Assembly: GCF_004116625.1 (NCBI RefSeq)
Contig: NZ_NXIE01000002.1
Span: 372,001-436,000, forward strand
Direction of reading: 5' to 3'
Length of the DNA stretch: 64,000 bases
Source of the DNA: Halarcobacter mediterraneus
GTDB taxonomy: Bacteria; Campylobacterota; Campylobacteria; Campylobacterales; Arcobacteraceae
Positions within the stretch are counted from its first letter, which is position 1. The number at the start of each line of letters is the position of its first letter. The notes under the pieces are model-generated. The model saw only the letters and a list, made by a program, of their open reading frames with translations. It ran no database searches and had not been told where the DNA came from. Both the position numbers and the translations under genes were made by a program. Of this stretch, positions 8,244-15,425 are shown in pieces.

Positions 8244-10601
8244 CTAATCTTTATTACAAACTGTTTTATAAATACAATATTGACAAGTCTGTGTATCATC
8301 ACATTTTATAAAGTTAACACTTTTTGTCTTGAAAGTTTCAAAAATCTCTTTTAATAAATTTAATTTATTATCTAAAACAGTCTCTTCTAAAAGCTTCATA
8401 TTAAATAAATCATAATAAAAACTTTTAATTTTATCAGTTTTAAATAAATTTTCTACAGCTAAGTAATAAAACTCTAATTGGAAATCAACCGCTTTTTCAT
8501 ATGTTCTTTTAGTACTTACTTTTAAATTACTTGAAGTTTTATAATCAAGTACATAGTATTCATCTTTTAATCTATCAATTCTATCAATTTTTCCTTGAAG
8601 CTTTATTCCTTCAAAATCAAAAATAAAAGCTTTTTCCAAAGCAATAATTTCAAAGCCTTCTTTAAATCTTTCTTCTTCATAAGAAATAAAATCTTGAAGT
8701 TTTCTTTTCCAAATTTCCAAGTCTAAATTTAAGAAAGGATTTTCACTTCTGTATTCATTAAATATTTCTAATAATTTTCCATAATTTCTATCTTCTTGCT
8801 TATAAAACTTTTCTAAAGTATTATGAACAATATTTCCTAACTCATATCCTTTTGGTTTTAAAGAGATATCATGCTCTTTTATTTTTAATATGTGATTTAA
8901 ATAAAATTTTCGTTTACATTCAAGAAATTCTTTTAAACTACTTGCACTCCAAACAATCTTTGATAAATCAATATCTAAAATAATTTCTTCATCAAAATGT
9001 TTTAAAGAATGATTATGATAGAGAATATGTTTATATTCATTATCATAAAGTTTATCTTCAATTTCATATTTGTCAAAAATCTTACTTGCAAATCTAGAAA
9101 TCTGGTCACTATCATTTTTTACATAAGATACTGCAATATTCTTTGAGTTTGAAATTAACCTTTTATAATAATACTTTTGAAGATTTTCTCTATCAGTTAT
9201 GGTAGGTAAGTTAACTTTTTGTTTTAAAGCAGTTGATAAGAACTTATCTTTTAGACTTCTTTTAGGAATTAAAGATTCATTAAAATCACATATTATTAAT
9301 GCATCAAATTCAATTAATCTACTTTCCAATAGACCCATTACAGTAATTTTTCCTGAGTTTACATCATCAAGGGTAATAGAAGAAACTTTTTGATGAAAAA
9401 TTTTAAAAGCATCTTTAAAAAGTATAACTTCATCTTGAGAAAAGATTAATTTCTCAAACTTAAAACATATATCATCAAACTTTTCTAGTAAGTCTTTATT
9501 ACTTTCTAAAGATTTAAAATATTTTATTATTTCAGCGTAATTTTCTTTTCTTATTGGTTTATTCCATGCTTTTTTAAATAATTCAGTATAAAAAGATTTA
9601 TCAATATTTAAATACTCAATATTTTTAATTAGTTTTATTTCTTCGTCCACTAAGCTTGAATATATTGCATCTAAAACTTTATATAATTTACTGTTTTCAA
9701 TGCCTATTCCCATCGCATAATTAAAATAAGATTCTTCATCAAAAAGTCTAAGAATATTTGCAAATTTCTCATCAGGTAAAATTAATGCAATTTTTGAAGG
9801 ATCTATACCTTTATCTACAAATTCAGATATTTTTGTTTTAATAAAAGCTATCTGGTTTATTCTAGATGAAAATCCTTTTATCTCTAGGCTCTGAATATTT
9901 TGTTTATCTTCTTTTTGGGAAACTATTTTTTTATTACTAAAGTTTATTCTATATCTATTAAAATTATCAATTTTTAAACCATAATCAATAAACTTTTGAA
10001 TAGATTTTTTATTATATTCATTATAAATAAATTCAATTTCTAAATTTACACATTTAGAAACTTCTTTTATAAGTTCAAACTCAAACTGTGTAAAATAACC
10101 TTCAAAATAAATTTCAATAGCCTCATATCTATTTACAAAATCTTTATTTATATTAAAATATTTATAAAAGTTTATTCTATCAACAGCATTATTTTTATCT
10201 AGTATTTTTAAATAATTATTGTATATACTTCTTAAAATACTCAAATGTTCTTCATAATAAGAATATGTATCTACAAGAGTAATTGAATCAATAGAAATAT
10301 TTTCACTTGCTATCTCTAAAAAAAATCTATATATATAATCACTTTGTTTTAAAAAGGAACTAAAAGAAGAAGAAATACCTAGACTTTTTAAATTTACATT
10401 TTTCACTGCTTCTGTAAGATATAAAAATCTTTGTTCTTCATCAATTAATTTTTTGTTTTCAAAAAAAAGTACTCGTTTAAAAAATTCATCAATTGTTATA
10501 AGAGAGGGTAAGAGAGTATTTTCAAAAGTTGAATTACTTAAATACTCTCTTATAGACCTAGAAGTAGGTTTAACTATAAGTTTTTTACTGCTCAATTGCA
10601 T
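8244..10601 (-). CDS. addB: AddB-like PD-(D/E)XK nuclease of the double-strand-break repair complex
   Basis: A 785-residue protein. The first two thirds resemble an inactivated helicase. The C-terminal third carries the RecB-family nuclease motif (KIDRIDRLKDEYYVLDYKTSS near residue 680). Four Cys can hold a [4Fe-4S] cluster: one in FLECKRKFY near residue 555 and three in CQYCIYKTVC at the C-terminus, an AddB signature. In Helicobacter and Campylobacter AddB works with AddA to resect DNA ends. No addA is in the window. The ATG (10601) lies 17 bases inside the FixH-like gene, so it is the last gene of the cco transcript. The exact symbol is inferred from motifs and context. Confidence 0.8.
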   Translation of the reverse strand: MQLSSKKLIVKPTSRSIREYLSNSTFENTLLPSLITIDEFFKRVLFFENKKLIDEEQRFLYLTEAVKNVNLKSLGISSSFSSFLKQSDYIYRFFLEIASENISIDSITLVDTYSYYEEHLSILRSIYNNYLKILDKNNAVDRINFYKYFNINKDFVNRYEAIEIYFEGYFTQFEFELIKEVSKCVNLEIEFIYNEYNKKSIQKFIDYGLKIDNFNRYRINFSNKKIVSQKEDKQNIQSLEIKGFSSRINQIAFIKTKISEFVDKGIDPSKIALILPDEKFANILRLFDEESYFNYAMGIGIENSKLYKVLDAIYSSLVDEEIKLIKNIEYLNIDKSFYTELFKKAWNKPIRKENYAEIIKYFKSLESNKDLLEKFDDICFKFEKLIFSQDEVILFKDAFKIFHQKVSSITLDDVNSGKITVMGLLESRLIEFDALIICDFNESLIPKRSLKDKFLSTALKQKVNLPTITDRENLQKYYYKRLISNSKNIAVSYVKNDSDQISRFASKIFDKYEIEDKLYDNEYKHILYHNHSLKHFDEEIILDIDLSKIVWSASSLKEFLECKRKFYLNHILKIKEHDISLKPKGYELGNIVHNTLEKFYKQEDRNYGKLLEIFNEYRSENPFLNLDLEIWKRKLQDFISYEEERFKEGFEIIALEKAFIFDFEGIKLQGKIDRIDRLKDEYYVLDYKTSSNLKVSTKRTYEKAVDFQLEFYYLAVENLFKTDKIKSFYYDLFNMKLLEETVLDNKLNLLKEIFETFKTKSVNFIKCDDTQTCQYCIYKTVCNKD

Positions 10602-11151
10602 CAGATTTTAAATAAAAATATCCTATATCATTGCCAATTGAGAAATTTCCAGTAACATTCCAATTTCCTTTTAATGGTAAAGACACCAATTTAGTATATT
10701 TTCCATTTTCTAAGGAAAAATCTTCTTCTGTGAAATCCATTGTATTATTATGGTTAGTTGGCCTCGAAATTCTTAGTTTAATTTTTATATTATCTATTAA
10801 ATTCCCTGATTTATCTGTAATCAAAATAGAAACAGTATTGTTACCTTTAAAAAACACTTTCTTATGTTTCGACTCTTTTTCAATAACCCTTTGAGCTTTA
10901 AACATATCATCAATAATAAGTGCAAACTTTTTATCATTAAAAAGTATTTCAAAATTATATTTTGATTTAAAAGTTCTATTTGATTCTACAACTTCATTAA
11001 AATGTTTATCAAGATCCTGATAAGACTTTAAAAATGTTTCATCTTCATAAACAGGTGTGTTTACAGCTGAATATATAGTCCAAATGATTAATGTAAAAGC
11101 AAATGAGAATAAACCAATAAAAAGTAAAGGCCAATAATTTCTTTTTTTCAT
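10585..11151 (-). CDS. FixH-like membrane protein of cbb3 oxidase biogenesis
   Basis: A 188-residue protein with one N-terminal membrane helix (YWPLLFIGLFSFAFTLIIW) and a periplasmic domain with the FixH/YtkA-like immunoglobulin-type strand pattern (VSILITDKSGNLI, ending KGNWNVTGNFSIGND). FixH-family proteins are accessory factors for cbb3 oxidase assembly or copper delivery. Its place downstream of ccoNOQP supports that. It overlaps addB by 17 bases. The family assignment rests on topology, length and neighbours, so it is moderate. Confidence 0.7.
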   Translation of the reverse strand: MKKRNYWPLLFIGLFSFAFTLIIWTIYSAVNTPVYEDETFLKSYQDLDKHFNEVVESNRTFKSKYNFEILFNDKKFALIIDDMFKAQRVIEKESKHKKVFFKGNNTVSILITDKSGNLIDNIKIKLRISRPTNHNNTMDFTEEDFSLENGKYTKLVSLPLKGNWNVTGNFSIGNDIGYFYLKSDAIEQ

Positions 11152-11164
11152 ATTAAATGTTTTC

Positions 11165-11791
11165 CTATTTTTTTCTTTTCAAAACTGCATACATATACAA
11201 TAAAATACCTAAAATAATCAAAGTATACATAAAAACTCTCCAAATAGTACCAGCTACTTTTCCTGAGCTTCCTATACTACTTTCTAGTTCTATTCCCTTT
11301 GATTCAGCTATAGTATCAGCAATTGCCGCATATCCATTTAAAATAGCTGCACTTGCCTTTGCAAAAGTTGAGTTTTTGTCTTTTGATGCTAGCAATGGTA
11401 CAACATATCCATTTAATATTTCATTTTTTTCTACAACATCTTTTAAACTTGAAGATACAATTAAATTTACATGAGTATCCTCTACTGACATAGTTAACAG
11501 TACATAAGGTTTTTTCAAAGAATCTAAAATTTGAGATTCATGATCTTTTATATATTTAATTTTATCTTTTGTTGAAATATTAGAATCTAATCCTAAAGAA
11601 GACTTTGCATAAACATATATATTTACATTAAGTTTAGCAGAGGTTTCATTTCCAATTTCTTCTATTTTTCCAATAGCTCTTTTATCAATCAGACCATCAT
11701 CACTTAATACATATTTACTTGCATACAAATTTGAAGATAAAAAAAGTAGCAGTGTAATCACTACTACTTTTAAAAATTTTAAACTAGCCAT
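11165..11791 (-). CDS. TPM-domain membrane-anchored periplasmic protein
   Basis: A 208-residue protein with a signal peptide or anchor (FLKVVVITLLLFLSSNLYA), a TPM-like domain (YVLSDDGLIDKRAIGKIEEI near residue 27, then KLNVNIYVYAKSSLG) and a C-terminal membrane helix followed by KRKK. The topology is therefore periplasmic domain with cytoplasmic tail. TPM domains occur in photosystem and respiratory assembly proteins; the function here is not known. Its start overlaps the stop of the 30-codon gene by one base (TAATG), so it belongs to the cco operon. The same position in Campylobacter carries a putative membrane protein, as far as I recall. Confidence 0.65.
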   Translation of the reverse strand: MASLKFLKVVVITLLLFLSSNLYASKYVLSDDGLIDKRAIGKIEEIGNETSAKLNVNIYVYAKSSLGLDSNISTKDKIKYIKDHESQILDSLKKPYVLLTMSVEDTHVNLIVSSSLKDVVEKNEILNGYVVPLLASKDKNSTFAKASAAILNGYAAIADTIAESKGIELESSIGSSGKVAGTIWRVFMYTLIILGILLYMYAVLKRKK

Positions 11792-11883
11792 TAACCTACA
11801 AACACTCTTGTTGAATCAAAAAAAGATAAATATAATGATAAACCAGCTGCTATTACTAATAGTACACCAATAATTTTTTCCAT
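11791..11883 (-). CDS. 30-residue single-helix membrane peptide in the cco operon
   Basis: A complete 30-codon gene: ATG at 11883..11881, TAA at 11793..11791. The peptide begins MEKIIGVLLVIAAGLSLYLS and ends FFDSTRVFVG, which is one transmembrane helix with a short polar tail. A strong AAGGAG ribosome site lies 8 bases upstream, inside the end of the DUF4006 gene, and the stop overlaps the TPM-protein ATG by one base. Spacing and RBS make it very probably translated. Small single-helix subunits are known for cbb3 oxidases (CcoQ, CcoM) and for bd oxidases (CydX), so an accessory subunit is a fair inference. No homologue is recognised by eye. Confidence 0.72.
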   Translation of the reverse strand: MEKIIGVLLVIAAGLSLYLSFFDSTRVFVG

Positions 11884-11884
11884 T

Positions 11885-12127
11885 TTATTTCTCCTTACCA
11901 ACAAGCTCATATTGCTTGATATTGTCAGGGCTAATTGCTTTTAGTCCATTAAGATCTTGGTTTATTTTATAATAATTTGTAGATTCATTTTGTTGAACTA
12001 CAATTGCATTATAAGTTAATACACCTAAAATAGTTAATAGTAAAACTGTTGCAATTAACATTCCAACAATTCCATTAAGAGCAAATAATCCTCTTTCGTT
12101 ATCATTCATTTGTGTATTTCCAGCCAT
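11885..12127 (-). CDS. DUF4006 family small membrane protein
   Basis: An 80-residue protein with a short polar N-terminus (MAGNTQMNDNERGLFALNGI), one membrane helix (GMLIATVLLLTILGVLTYNAI) and a polar C-terminal tail. This matches the DUF4006 family, which in Campylobacterota sits directly after ccoP. It starts 1 base after the ccoP stop (on the minus strand), so it is co-transcribed. A role in cbb3 oxidase assembly or stability is inferred from this constant position only. Confidence 0.75.
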   Translation of the reverse strand: MAGNTQMNDNERGLFALNGIVGMLIATVLLLTILGVLTYNAIVVQQNESTNYYKINQDLNGLKAISPDNIKQYELVGKEK

Positions 12128-12128
12128 C

Positions 12129-13022
12129 TTATTCTCCTAAACTTCTAATATAAGCAGCAACTGCTTTTTCTTGAGTAGGATTAAGTCTTCCTTTGAAGTT
12201 TGGCATCATTCCAATAGAACCTTTTTTCCCATTCTCTAAAACAGTAGTTACAATTGCATCGTCATATTCTACAATATTTGGACCAACGTAAGGCATACCT
12301 TTACCATCTGCACCATGACAAGAAGCACATACTGCATATGCTGCTGGTTGTTCACCTTTAAATCCACCTGCAACATATGAAGAAACTGCATCAATATCAG
12401 CTTGTTCAGTTAACATCATAGGAGGCATACCTGCTGGATAAGCATTAGCAAAGTTGTTTGCACCATTTTTAATGATATATTCAACTTGATCTTTAGCCAT
12501 TCTATTTGTTAAGTTATGAGCCTTACCATTAATACCTTCAGCATCAACACCATGACAAGGTGCACATTGAACTAAATATGTTGACTCACCCATTGCAACT
12601 AAAGTATCTTCTGATGGATTTTCAAATTTTGAAGCAAATCTAGTATTATAATCATTTACTTCTTCATTCCATTGACCAATTTGTGAGAATCCATTTGTAG
12701 GATAACCAATAGTCCAGTACCAAAATAACCAGATAATTGTTCCTATAAAAGCTAATCCCCAACCTGTAGGAATTGGATTTTTATACTCTCCAATACCATC
12801 CCAGTTTTCATCAGCTAATTCACCACTAGCTGTATCATTTTTGATTTGGTTAACATATTTTAAAGCTACAAATACTGTAATAGTAATAATTGCAATAGCA
12901 CCTAAAAATGTTAAACTATTCTCAACTGAAATATCGCTACTTAACGCATCACCCGCAACAATGTAAGTTCCTGCGATTAGAGCAACGATAAGAATAATTC
13001 CACCTATTACCATAGATTTCAT
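12129..13022 (-). CDS. ccoP: cbb3-type cytochrome c oxidase dihaem subunit III
   Basis: A 297-residue protein with three hydrophobic segments (residues about 3-23, 35-57, 88-106) and two cytochrome c domains with haem motifs C-A-P-C-H near residue 156 and C-A-S-C-H near residue 232. Met-containing loops (GMPPMML, SIGMMPNFKGR) are candidate axial ligands. CcoP feeds electrons from soluble cytochrome c to CcoO and CcoN. The N-terminus with a pair of helices before the usual NPxPxxW-type third helix is the Campylobacterota form. It follows ccoQ with 1 base between them. Confidence 0.96.
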   Translation of the reverse strand: MKSMVIGGIILIVALIAGTYIVAGDALSSDISVENSLTFLGAIAIITITVFVALKYVNQIKNDTASGELADENWDGIGEYKNPIPTGWGLAFIGTIIWLFWYWTIGYPTNGFSQIGQWNEEVNDYNTRFASKFENPSEDTLVAMGESTYLVQCAPCHGVDAEGINGKAHNLTNRMAKDQVEYIIKNGANNFANAYPAGMPPMMLTEQADIDAVSSYVAGGFKGEQPAAYAVCASCHGADGKGMPYVGPNIVEYDDAIVTTVLENGKKGSIGMMPNFKGRLNPTQEKAVAAYIRSLGE

Positions 13023-13023
13023 C

Positions 13024-13248
13024 TTATTTCTCCTTCTCTATATTCTCTTTATCTTTCTTTCTATCTTCGAGAGGATCAGATTCTATTGCATCATCATGAA
13101 CTAAATTTGAATATTTTTCAAAATCTCTTTCACCCTTTTTTTGCCTTTTATACATTGAATAAGCATAAGAATAAAATACAATGAATACTATCAAGATTAA
13201 AAAAAACTTTGCATAACCTTGAATTGTCAATAGAGTTTCTTGATCCAT
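13024..13248 (-). CDS. ccoQ: cbb3-type oxidase small subunit CcoQ
   Basis: A 74-residue protein with one membrane helix (FFLILIVFIVFYSYAYSMY) and a charged C-terminal tail (KRQKKGERDFEKYSN and onward). Length, helix position, the Y-x-x-x-K-R-x-K-x-G-E-R-D-x-E-x-Y signature and place between ccoO and ccoP identify it. CcoQ stabilises the interaction of CcoP with the core. Confidence 0.92.
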   Translation of the reverse strand: MDQETLLTIQGYAKFFLILIVFIVFYSYAYSMYKRQKKGERDFEKYSNLVHDDAIESDPLEDRKKDKENIEKEK

Positions 13249-13257
13249 TTTAACCTC

Positions 13258-13941
13258 TTATTTTAAAGAATTTAAATATGCAATTAATGCAACAATTTCA
13301 GGAACTTGACCGTTTGCTACGGCATCTTTAACAGCTTGGTTTTTCATATCAGCAGCAATAGCTTTTGCATCTTCTTTTGCTTTTGCAATTGCAGTTTCAT
13401 AATCACCTAGCTCAACATCAATTTTCCCATCACCATCAATATCTACATCATATGGAGTTTTAAATACTGTTTTAACAGTATACGCTTCAGCATATGCAGT
13501 ATCTAAATCAGCAATATTTGTAAACTGATGAGGATATGCTGGCATAATTGAACCTGGTACTACTGACTCAGGATCCATCATATGATTTTCATGCCAATCA
13601 GTTGTTCTATAATTTCCAACTCTCATTAAATCTGGACCTGTTCTTTTTGATCCCCATAAAAATGGTCTATCATAAGCATATTCACCAGATAATGAGTACA
13701 TACCATATCTATCTGTTTCAGATTTAAATGGTCTAATTAACTGTGAGTGACAAGCATTACAAGAATCTTTAATATAAACTTGTCTACCTGCTAACTCAAG
13801 TAAAGTGTACGGTTTCGTACCAACAGTAGGTCTTGATTGTTTAGCAAAATCAGGAATTACTTCAATAATACCTGCGAATGCAACAAATATAAATACTAAT
13901 ACCGCAAAGAAAAACGGTCTTTGTTCAAACCAATGAAACAT
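13258..13941 (-). CDS. ccoO: cbb3-type cytochrome c oxidase monohaem subunit II
   Basis: A 227-residue protein with one N-terminal membrane helix (FFFAVLVFIFVAFAGIIEVI) and one haem motif C-N-A-C-H near residue 62. Conserved CcoO features include GRQVYIKDSCNACHSQ, DRPFLWGSKRTGPDLMRVG and GSIMPAYPH, whose Met is the likely axial ligand. An insertion rich in Ala, Lys and Asp (residues about 155-215), including D-I-D-G-D-G-K-I-D, resembles an acidic loop seen in related bacteria. It sits 14 bases after ccoN. Confidence 0.97.
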   Translation of the reverse strand: MFHWFEQRPFFFAVLVFIFVAFAGIIEVIPDFAKQSRPTVGTKPYTLLELAGRQVYIKDSCNACHSQLIRPFKSETDRYGMYSLSGEYAYDRPFLWGSKRTGPDLMRVGNYRTTDWHENHMMDPESVVPGSIMPAYPHQFTNIADLDTAYAEAYTVKTVFKTPYDVDIDGDGKIDVELGDYETAIAKAKEDAKAIAADMKNQAVKDAVANGQVPEIVALIAYLNSLK

Positions 13942-13955
13942 TATTACCCTCCTTC

Positions 13956-15425
13956 TTAAGCAGCTACCGGTGTAGCATTTGTAGGTTCTTTATCAAGAAT
14001 TCTTCCTGCAGTTGCAGTTTTATACATATTGTATGCAAACATAAAGAAACCAATTAGGTATAATAACCCACCAACTGCTCTAATTGTATAGTATGGATGT
14101 AATACTGTTACAGTATCAATAAATGAATAAACTAATGAACCATATTCATCATAAGCTCTCCACATCATACCTTGAGTAATACCTGCAATCCACATTGATG
14201 TGAAGTATAAAACAATACCAGTTGTTTGTAACCAGAATTGAGTATCCATTAATGATTTAGAATAAATTTCTCTACCATACATTCTTGGAGCCATATGGAA
14301 TAGTGCAGCCATAACCATAAATACAACCCATCCTAAAACACCATCATGAACGTGTCCTGGAATCCAATCTGTAAAGTGAGCAATTGCATTAACAGATTTG
14401 ATTGATTGAATTGGTCCTTCTATTGTCGATAACATATAGAATGTAGAAGCTAATACCATAAACTTAATTAACGTATTTGTTTGTAATTGTTGCCACTCAC
14501 CTTTCATAGTTAAAAGCATATTAATAGCTGATCCCCATGATGGTAAAATTAATACAATTGACATAACAGAACCCATAGTTTGCATCCAATCAGGAACTGT
14601 AGAATAAATTAAGTGGTGTCCACCAGCCCAAAGGTAAACAAACATTAAACCCCAGAAAGCTAAGATTGATAACTTATAAGAGTAAACATTTTGTCCTGAC
14701 TCTTTTGGTAAGAAATAGTAAATCATAGCAATAATTGGTGTAGTAAATACGAATGCAACAGCATTGTGTCCATACCACCATTGTACTAAGGCATCATTTG
14801 TTCCAGAATACATAGATACTGAGTGAATCCATGAACCATACCCAGATACAAAGTATGTTGGAACTTCCATATTGTTGAATAAGTATAACATAGCAATAGC
14901 AATAAATGTAGCAATGAAGTACCAAATAGAGATATATAATGTTCTTTCTCTTCTAATACCCATTAATCCAAAAATTGATATTCCCCATAATACCCACCAA
15001 ACAACTACTAAAATATCTAAAGGCCATTCTAATTCAGCATACTCTTTTGAAGTTGTAATACCCATAAATAAAGTTACAACTGCTAAAAGAATTGTGATGA
15101 AGTAAAGTGCAAAATGTAATTTTCCAACACCCATTAAAAATGGAGACTCTTTTAAAGATACTTTTAAAACTCTTTGCCCGATATAATACCAACATGCAAA
15201 GATACCACTAAGAGTAAAACCAAAAGCAACACCATTTGTGTGTAAAGGTCTTAATCTACTGAAAGTACCATATTCCCCTGCAAGATTATTTAATCCAGGG
15301 AATGCAAGTTGAAACGCTAGTATAACACCAACTGTCATACCAATGATACCAAACAGAATTGTTGCAAATGTAAAGGCTTTTGCAATTGAGTAATCATACT
15401 CGATTTGTGAACCGTTTTGCATCAA
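13956..15425 (-). CDS. ccoN: cbb3-type cytochrome c oxidase catalytic subunit I
   Basis: A 489-residue, twelve-helix haem-copper oxidase subunit that reduces O2 with high affinity. The His ligands are in recognisable blocks: RPLHTNGVAFGF (low-spin haem), WWYGHNAVAF with the Tyr next to CuB, WAGGHHLIYS (CuB pair) and DWIPGHVHDGVLGW (haem pair). A strong RBS (AGGAGGAG) precedes the ATG. It is the first gene of the ccoNOQP operon that runs down to addB. This is the main microaerobic terminal oxidase of Campylobacterota. Confidence 0.98.
   Translation of the reverse strand: MMQNGSQIEYDYSIAKAFTFATILFGIIGMTVGVILAFQLAFPGLNNLAGEYGTFSRLRPLHTNGVAFGFTLSGIFACWYYIGQRVLKVSLKESPFLMGVGKLHFALYFITILLAVVTLFMGITTSKEYAELEWPLDILVVVWWVLWGISIFGLMGIRRERTLYISIWYFIATFIAIAMLYLFNNMEVPTYFVSGYGSWIHSVSMYSGTNDALVQWWYGHNAVAFVFTTPIIAMIYYFLPKESGQNVYSYKLSILAFWGLMFVYLWAGGHHLIYSTVPDWMQTMGSVMSIVLILPSWGSAINMLLTMKGEWQQLQTNTLIKFMVLASTFYMLSTIEGPIQSIKSVNAIAHFTDWIPGHVHDGVLGWVVFMVMAALFHMAPRMYGREIYSKSLMDTQFWLQTTGIVLYFTSMWIAGITQGMMWRAYDEYGSLVYSFIDTVTVLHPYYTIRAVGGLLYLIGFFMFAYNMYKTATAGRILDKEPTNATPVAA

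Follow-up and report, generated by a model that had tools for sequence, protein, structure and literature searches.

The 30-codon frame after ccoX in Halarcobacter mediterraneus is ccoY, a probable small cbb3 oxidase subunit gene followed by an RNA hairpin

The short open reading frame behind ccoX (DUF4006) in the cbb3 oxidase operon of Halarcobacter mediterraneus is ccoY, the orthologue of Campylobacter jejuni cj1485c, and stands last in the structural block ccoN-O-Q-P-X-Y. We analyzed it in a 64,000-nt stretch of contig NZ_NXIE01000002.1 (positions 372,001 to 436,000, hereafter the window) and in relatives across the phylum. Taken as a whole, the observations are probably best explained by a ccoY orthologue that encodes a small oxidase subunit and ends a block closed by an RNA hairpin, which would limit ccoZ and ccoH. 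The features of the operon in the window are as follows.

13956..15425, minus strand: ccoN (Pfam COX1; TIGR00780 over cut-off in its own genome)
13258..13941, minus strand: ccoO (Pfam FixO)
13024..13248, minus strand: ccoQ (TIGR02736 over cut-off)
12129..13022, minus strand: ccoP (Pfam FixP_N and Cytochrome_CBB3)
11885..12127, minus strand: ccoX, DUF4006 (Pfam PF13179, E 2.5e-28)
11891..11896, minus strand: AAGGAG ribosome-binding site of ccoY, within the 3′ end of ccoX (sequence)
11791..11883, minus strand: ccoY, membrane peptide of 30 aa with one helix, orthologue of C. jejuni Cj1485 (sequence, alignment, primer match, model)
11165..11791, minus strand: ccoZ, protein with a TPM domain, a hydrophobic N-terminus, and a helix at the C-terminus (model pLDDT 89, fold matches, weak Pfam match)
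11742..11771, minus strand: terminator-like hairpin, 13-bp stem and 4-nt loop, in ccoZ codons 7-17 (scan, statistics)
11739..11745, minus strand: run of seven T at the 3′ base of the stem, to which the first four belong (sequence)
10585..11151, minus strand: ccoH-like gene, FixH (Pfam FixH, 2.1e-8)

These genes are closely packed on the minus strand in the order ccoN-O-Q-P-X-Y-Z-H, with ccoY downstream of ccoNOQP and between ccoX (DUF4006) and ccoZ (TPM), as in C. jejuni. Read from the sequence, ccoY starts with ATG at 11883-11881 and stops with TAA at 11793-11791 on the minus strand, giving 30 codons and the peptide MEKIIGVLLVIAAGLSLYLSFFDSTRVFVG. A preliminary description of this DNA had pointed to an AAGGAG site, a start 1 base past the DUF4006 stop, and an end that overlaps the following gene by one base, and all are present: AAGGAG stands 7 nt from the ATG, the ccoX stop TAA occupies 11887-11885 with 1 base between it and the ccoY ATG, and the ccoY stop and ccoZ start form TAATG, sharing base 11791. 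An alternative in-frame ATG at 11910 would yield 39 aa, but the conserved CcoY start of relatives (M-E/D-K) aligns with the ATG at 11883. The structural model contains one helix at residues 2-27 (mean pLDDT 81), making the peptide almost wholly helical and agreeing with the single transmembrane helix that had been proposed.

Behind ccoNOQP, C. jejuni carries cj1486c (ccoX, DUF4006), cj1485c (ccoY), cj1484c (ccoZ, TPM), and cj1483c (ccoH), and CcoY (Cj1485) has 33 residues and one central helix (PMC8267372). As a probe, we used a 30-nt primer at the cj1485c/cj1484c junction from the same source (PMC8267372). The primer matched exactly in 3/49 genomes of one genus and, among our 207 loci, only in L047 and L049, where a 33-aa peptide lies between CcoX and CcoZ (two of the three primer-matched genomes were translated). 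This primer-tied peptide between CcoX and CcoZ in C. jejuni-type loci identifies the frame in the window as ccoY. Identity between the window peptide and that of a locus in the same genus as the C. jejuni-type ones (L046) is 24%, too little on its own, and intermediates in a 121-row alignment tie the window CcoY to Cj1485.

Because the frame is ccoY, the term "overlooked" used in the preliminary description does not suit the family, whose C. jejuni member already carries a locus tag (cj1485c) and a name and shows a phenotype on deletion (PMC8267372). Oxidase activity in C. jejuni is abolished without ccoX or ccoH and lowered without ccoY or ccoZ; in the cj1485c deletion, Cco activity is reduced, not abolished, and copper gives no rescue (PMC8267372). 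The blue-native bands described in the accessible text contained nine proteins (CcoN, CcoO, CcoP, CcoH, CcoZ, CcoX, QcrA, QcrB, and QcrC) and not CcoY, a small hydrophobic peptide that is easily missed (PMC8267372). CcoY itself is already known, and the phylum-wide distribution, the gene-partition argument, and the hairpin are apparently undescribed additions. We found no report of the hairpin, of the partition argument, or of ccoY beyond C. jejuni in the open-access literature; in the accessible main text, a C. jejuni Ribo-seq paper (PMC11955535) does not mention cj1485, and a C. jejuni term-seq paper (PMC11187230), whose public data are GSE230837, does not mention cj1484.

CcoX (PF13179) is present in 98/104 genomes of the family and 380/397 of the phylum. 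From these we assembled 127 CcoX loci, comprising the best-scoring matches and regions picked for genus spread and thus not a random sample, and a small open reading frame directly follows CcoX in 121 of them. In five others (L060, L073, L077, L118, L119), ccoG follows CcoX and CcoY lies beside CcoZ behind ccoG, with L118 presumably in the order X-ccoG-Y-Z across a contig break; in the last (L125), CcoY begins clearly before the contig end cuts the locus. Among named loci, CcoY is present in 79/80 (78 by script and one by eye), and a contig end truncates the remaining one. Start, stop, and hydrophobic core are conserved at the same place in relatives, the comparison on which the preliminary description had staked its gene. 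Lengths are mostly 29-36 aa, longer versions reflecting upstream in-frame starts.

The mode of substitution points to a translated gene. Across 48 distinct Arcobacter-type sequences, entropy averages 0.80/0.40/1.13 at the three codon positions, and stops interrupt the two alternative sense frames in 47/48 and 45/48. Mean pN/pS in the same set is 0.43, a value that serves only as a guide since synonymous sites are near saturation. By codon-position entropy and pN/pS, ccoY reads as a translated gene under purifying selection, and the proposal of a real and conserved 30-codon gene is borne out.

The C-terminal tail comes in three types. Most Arcobacter-type loci have FDSTRVFVG, most others have TPNHLFVG, and the f2 family has an FIPN.FL type. 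As a separate observation, the tail is at odds with the family in four loci (L011 and L013 in G040 and G038, L028 in G076, and L086 in G455): three Arcobacter-family genomes carry the TPNHLFVG type and one f4 genome a DPTRVFVG type, which suggests operon exchange between lineages. Weak matches of the peptide or a 25-row profile in Pfam, NCBIfam, and PDB were set aside as chance matches of one-helix peptides; they were scattered (KdpF, E 0.049; MgrB, E 0.1; PsbN, E 0.0058), with a pilin-like model at E 0.0022 for one family member.

About 20 nt past the ccoY stop in the window, inside the first codons of ccoZ, lies the hairpin, which reads on the coding strand AAAAGTAGTAGTG-ATTA-CACTGCTACTTTT followed by TTTATC. 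It fits the form of an intrinsic terminator, with a stable GC-containing stem and a T-run immediately after, and is the strongest (11771-11742) of five terminator-like sites in the operon region, where 1.4 are expected. To place it in a wider set, we assessed 184 loci, leaving 174 distinct regions after removal of duplicates; loci with the ccoZ start beyond -8 to +20 of the ccoY stop and those cut by contig ends were left out. Under a contiguous-stem rule, a hairpin is present in 103/174 regions, compared to expectations of 9.2 (sd 2.8) from synonymous redraws of the ccoZ codons and 24.6 (sd 4.0) from synonymous permutation of those codons. By an energy threshold (at most -10 kcal/mol ahead of the T-run), the hairpin is found in 98/174 regions and in 5.0% of redraws, and the stem alone occurs in 111/174 loci, compared to 4.2 (sd 2.0) expected from synonymous recoding. 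When sites are counted in 100-nt bins within 1.3 kb on either side, the hairpin bin holds 100 and every other bin at most 11.

Random windows (20/1871, compared to 116/199 after ccoY) were dropped as a control in favor of synonymous redraw and permutation; they were judged too lenient, as a stretch of Lys-rich codons ahead of Leu/Phe-rich ones can pair on its own. A control on window genes with a hydrophobic N-terminus gave 2/12, one of them ccoZ itself, and was too small to use.

The arms vary by clade while pairing is kept. Two-sided changes occur in 29 sequences of family f1, with G-C replaced by A-T at one position (17 and 12 of 29) and T-A, A-T, and C-G found at another. Pairs were counted from each sequence's own hairpin, as the MAFFT alignment placed some right arms out of register; this count covers 29/35 hairpin-bearing f1 loci and, with the best stem chosen per sequence, leans towards pairing. 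The C. jejuni-type loci L047 and L049 carry the hairpin at -12.8 and -12.4 kcal/mol. Most f7 loci (1/19 with it) and most f2 loci (5/14 with it) lack the hairpin, which occurs in 1/12 named Sulfurovum loci and 0/5 named Sulfuricurvum/Sulfurimonas loci, and is missing from most Sulfurimonas-type loci. Outside the 174 regions, 5/15 displaced or extra Y-Z regions (L211-L225) reach -10 kcal/mol. Rfam returned no match in the ccoY-ccoZ region.

Judged from these comparisons, the stem is clearly selected beyond the protein sequence, and we infer that transcription terminates at it. Selection on the stem is clearer than the case for a terminator as such, since the T-run barely exceeds what the amino acids impose (5.27 T in 8 bases compared to 5.06, a slight enrichment). 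That contrast, a stem far beyond expectation beside a T-run nearly explained by the encoded amino acids, is what would be expected if the hairpin were a processing or stability element at the 3′ end of a ccoNOQPXY mRNA instead of a terminator. The tract is nevertheless T-rich and slightly enriched, and operons from which Z-H has moved elsewhere carry a strong hairpin directly behind ccoY; we consider a processing or stability element possible but doubtful.

The link to the cbb3 oxidase, made in the preliminary description from position, was followed through gene content. Of 18 tested genomes without a CcoX match, 15 lack CcoN and three have it whole or in part: in two the contig breaks off at this position (G061 and G322), and the third has a partial CcoN (G452). 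Four further CcoX-less genomes (G071, G073, G095, and G097) fall outside the 18 tested. A CcoY profile search of 30 genomes found 17 places in 13 genomes and none in the 15 genomes without CcoN, which together with the deletion phenotype in C. jejuni (PMC8267372) supports the link.

Six operons close the oxidase block with CcoY and have no ccoZ-ccoH beside it. Three are second operons (G026, with N-O-Q-P-X-Y; G030 and G091, both with N-O-P-X-Y), in genomes that have one clear Z each, plus a further weak match in G030; in the G030 and G091 operons no ccoQ was found, and ccoO and ccoP are separated by ~15-20 nt. In the other three (G037, G039, and G072), the operon is the only one found, Z-H lies elsewhere, and a strong hairpin follows ccoY immediately. 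A seventh locus (L124) is cut too early to judge the presence of Z-H. The converse, an N-O-P-X cluster from which CcoY has gone, was not found in any genome examined. Since CcoY is kept with N-O-P-X where Z-H is missing, a structural subunit is favored over an assembly factor tied to CcoZ. CcoY travels with ccoN, as expected of a small subunit and less of a CcoZ-bound assembly factor, and this partition favors CcoY as a subunit of the oxidase.

Among the second operons, L237 (G030:C1:993000-999000) and L238 (G091:C1:2688000-2695000) are without ccoQ, ccoZ, and ccoH and keep ccoX and ccoY. The gene that follows each of them is presumably a nitrite/sulfite reductase, judging by its sequence.

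Another reading has CcoY as a membrane partner of CcoZ that joins the bc (Qcr) complex to the oxidase and is not part of the oxidase. Y stands directly before Z in most genomes, including 15/15 CcoZ-centred regions (displaced or extra), in which the gene ahead of CcoY is ccoG in eight, CcoX in five, and nothing visible in two; an inserted ccoG leaves Y next to Z in 8/8 of the regions that have one (the eighth being L215). Loss of either ccoY or ccoZ lowers activity in C. jejuni (PMC8267372), and the CcoZ model matches TPM domains, including a subunit of the mycobacterial III2-IV2 supercomplex. In the fold search, CcoZ matched 6hwh_O (Z 11.7, rmsd 2.5 Å over 112) and 8hcr_J (Z 11.9, rmsd 2.4 Å over 108), the supercomplex chains 6hwh_O, 8hcr_J, and 6adq_J together spanning Z 11.3-11.9 and rmsd 2.4-2.6 Å over 108-112 residues. 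PG_0361, BA41, and Psb32 scored higher Z than these chains, and a CcoZ sequence profile returned nothing credible from PDB (best E 0.52). The modeled CcoZ fold agrees with the MSMEG_4692 likeness claimed for C. jejuni, but TPM folds are widespread, with Psb32 and TLP18.3 also among the matches, and a supercomplex role does not follow from the fold by itself. Set against the six operons that have Y and no Z beside it, three of them second oxidase copies, a role for CcoY as a partner of CcoZ in place of one within the oxidase seems unlikely to us.

Some further arrangements bear mention. The ccoG gene, identified by sequence only, lies between ccoX and ccoY-ccoZ in part of the phylum, namely in L211-L214, L216, L221, L222, and L215 with L246. 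We dropped an earlier idea that CcoY is always paired with CcoZ, as six operons carry Y without Z, and another that CcoY in G456 had left the oxidase block for another contig: the CcoG C-terminus lies directly before Y near the contig end, and the order, with the two contigs presumably joined, fits the X-ccoG-Y-Z of other genomes. One CcoZ frame in family f6 (L112, G216) has 354 aa and apparently two TPM-like repeats compared to one.

The hairpin also raises the idea that ccoY serves mainly as a leader whose translation, ending 20 nt before the hairpin, sets read-through into ccoZ-ccoH. By the size of its footprint, a ribosome on the stop codon would leave a hairpin at 20 nt just clear, and the median distance from the ccoY stop to the 5′ base of the hairpin is 20 nt (n = 98). 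Yet the amino-acid sequence of CcoY is conserved, and CcoY is kept both where no ccoZ follows and where the hairpin is absent, which makes a mainly regulatory role for ccoY very improbable. That the frame is a chance one between two genes, as its shortness in an AT-rich genome might allow, is refuted by phylum-wide conservation with coding-type substitution and by the deletion phenotype in C. jejuni (PMC8267372).

Returning to CcoY as an oxidase subunit encoded ahead of a hairpin, we propose the following mechanism. As a small stoichiometric subunit, CcoY would pack its helix against the edge of the oxidase and stabilize the enzyme, like CcoM or CydX. The hairpin in the first ccoZ codons would close the block N-O-Q-P-X-Y: once the ribosome has reached the ccoY stop, polymerases would pause or stop there, and the hairpin would probably end or trim many transcripts just behind ccoY. 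Expression of the helper genes ccoZ and ccoH would depend on read-through and stay below the level of N-O-Q-P-X-Y, and a ribosome that restarts at the ccoZ start, which overlaps ccoY, would open the hairpin. We give an even chance to the joint proposal that an attenuator present across much of the phylum splits highly expressed N, O, Q, P, X, and Y from weakly expressed Z and H, that ccoX and ccoY encode constitutive small subunits, and that passage into Z-H may need a ribosome restart at ccoZ.

The cbb3 oxidase supports microaerobic life in Campylobacterota, and ccoY, known from one species, is extended here to a phylum-wide component. By natural partition, X and Y group as subunit-like genes and Z and H as helper-like ones, and a selected RNA element could set the ratio between the two.

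A CcoY profile had no match at E 1 or better among PDB chains, CcoM presumably included, though a peptide this short could escape such a search. The likeness to CcoM and CydX suggested in the preliminary description is one of size and position; no match in sequence was found. The window CcoZ shares the TPM fold with a chain of the mycobacterial supercomplex, MSMEG_4692 (PMC8267372); CcoY has no sequence link to any PDB chain of that complex or others, and the adjacent locus numbers of MSMEG_4692 and MSMEG_4693 (CtaJ) suggest a TPM protein beside another subunit. CcoM of the Pseudomonas stutzeri cbb3 oxidase (36 aa, PMC10433244) is of the same size class and illustrates the small-subunit idea. 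In the same phylum, CioY (34 aa) of C. jejuni CioAB is a small helix encoded beside its oxidase that binds CioA by co-immunoprecipitation (PMC11955535); CioY and CydX are encoded with a bd-type oxidase, whereas the neighbors of the window CcoY are ccoNOQP. Closest is CcoY of C. jejuni (PMC8267372), which is alignable and has the same position between ccoX and ccoZ, ~30 residues, and one central helix; the window peptide differs in length (30 compared to 33 aa) and in its C-terminal tail, FFDSTRVFVG compared to the VLT.NHL.IG type.
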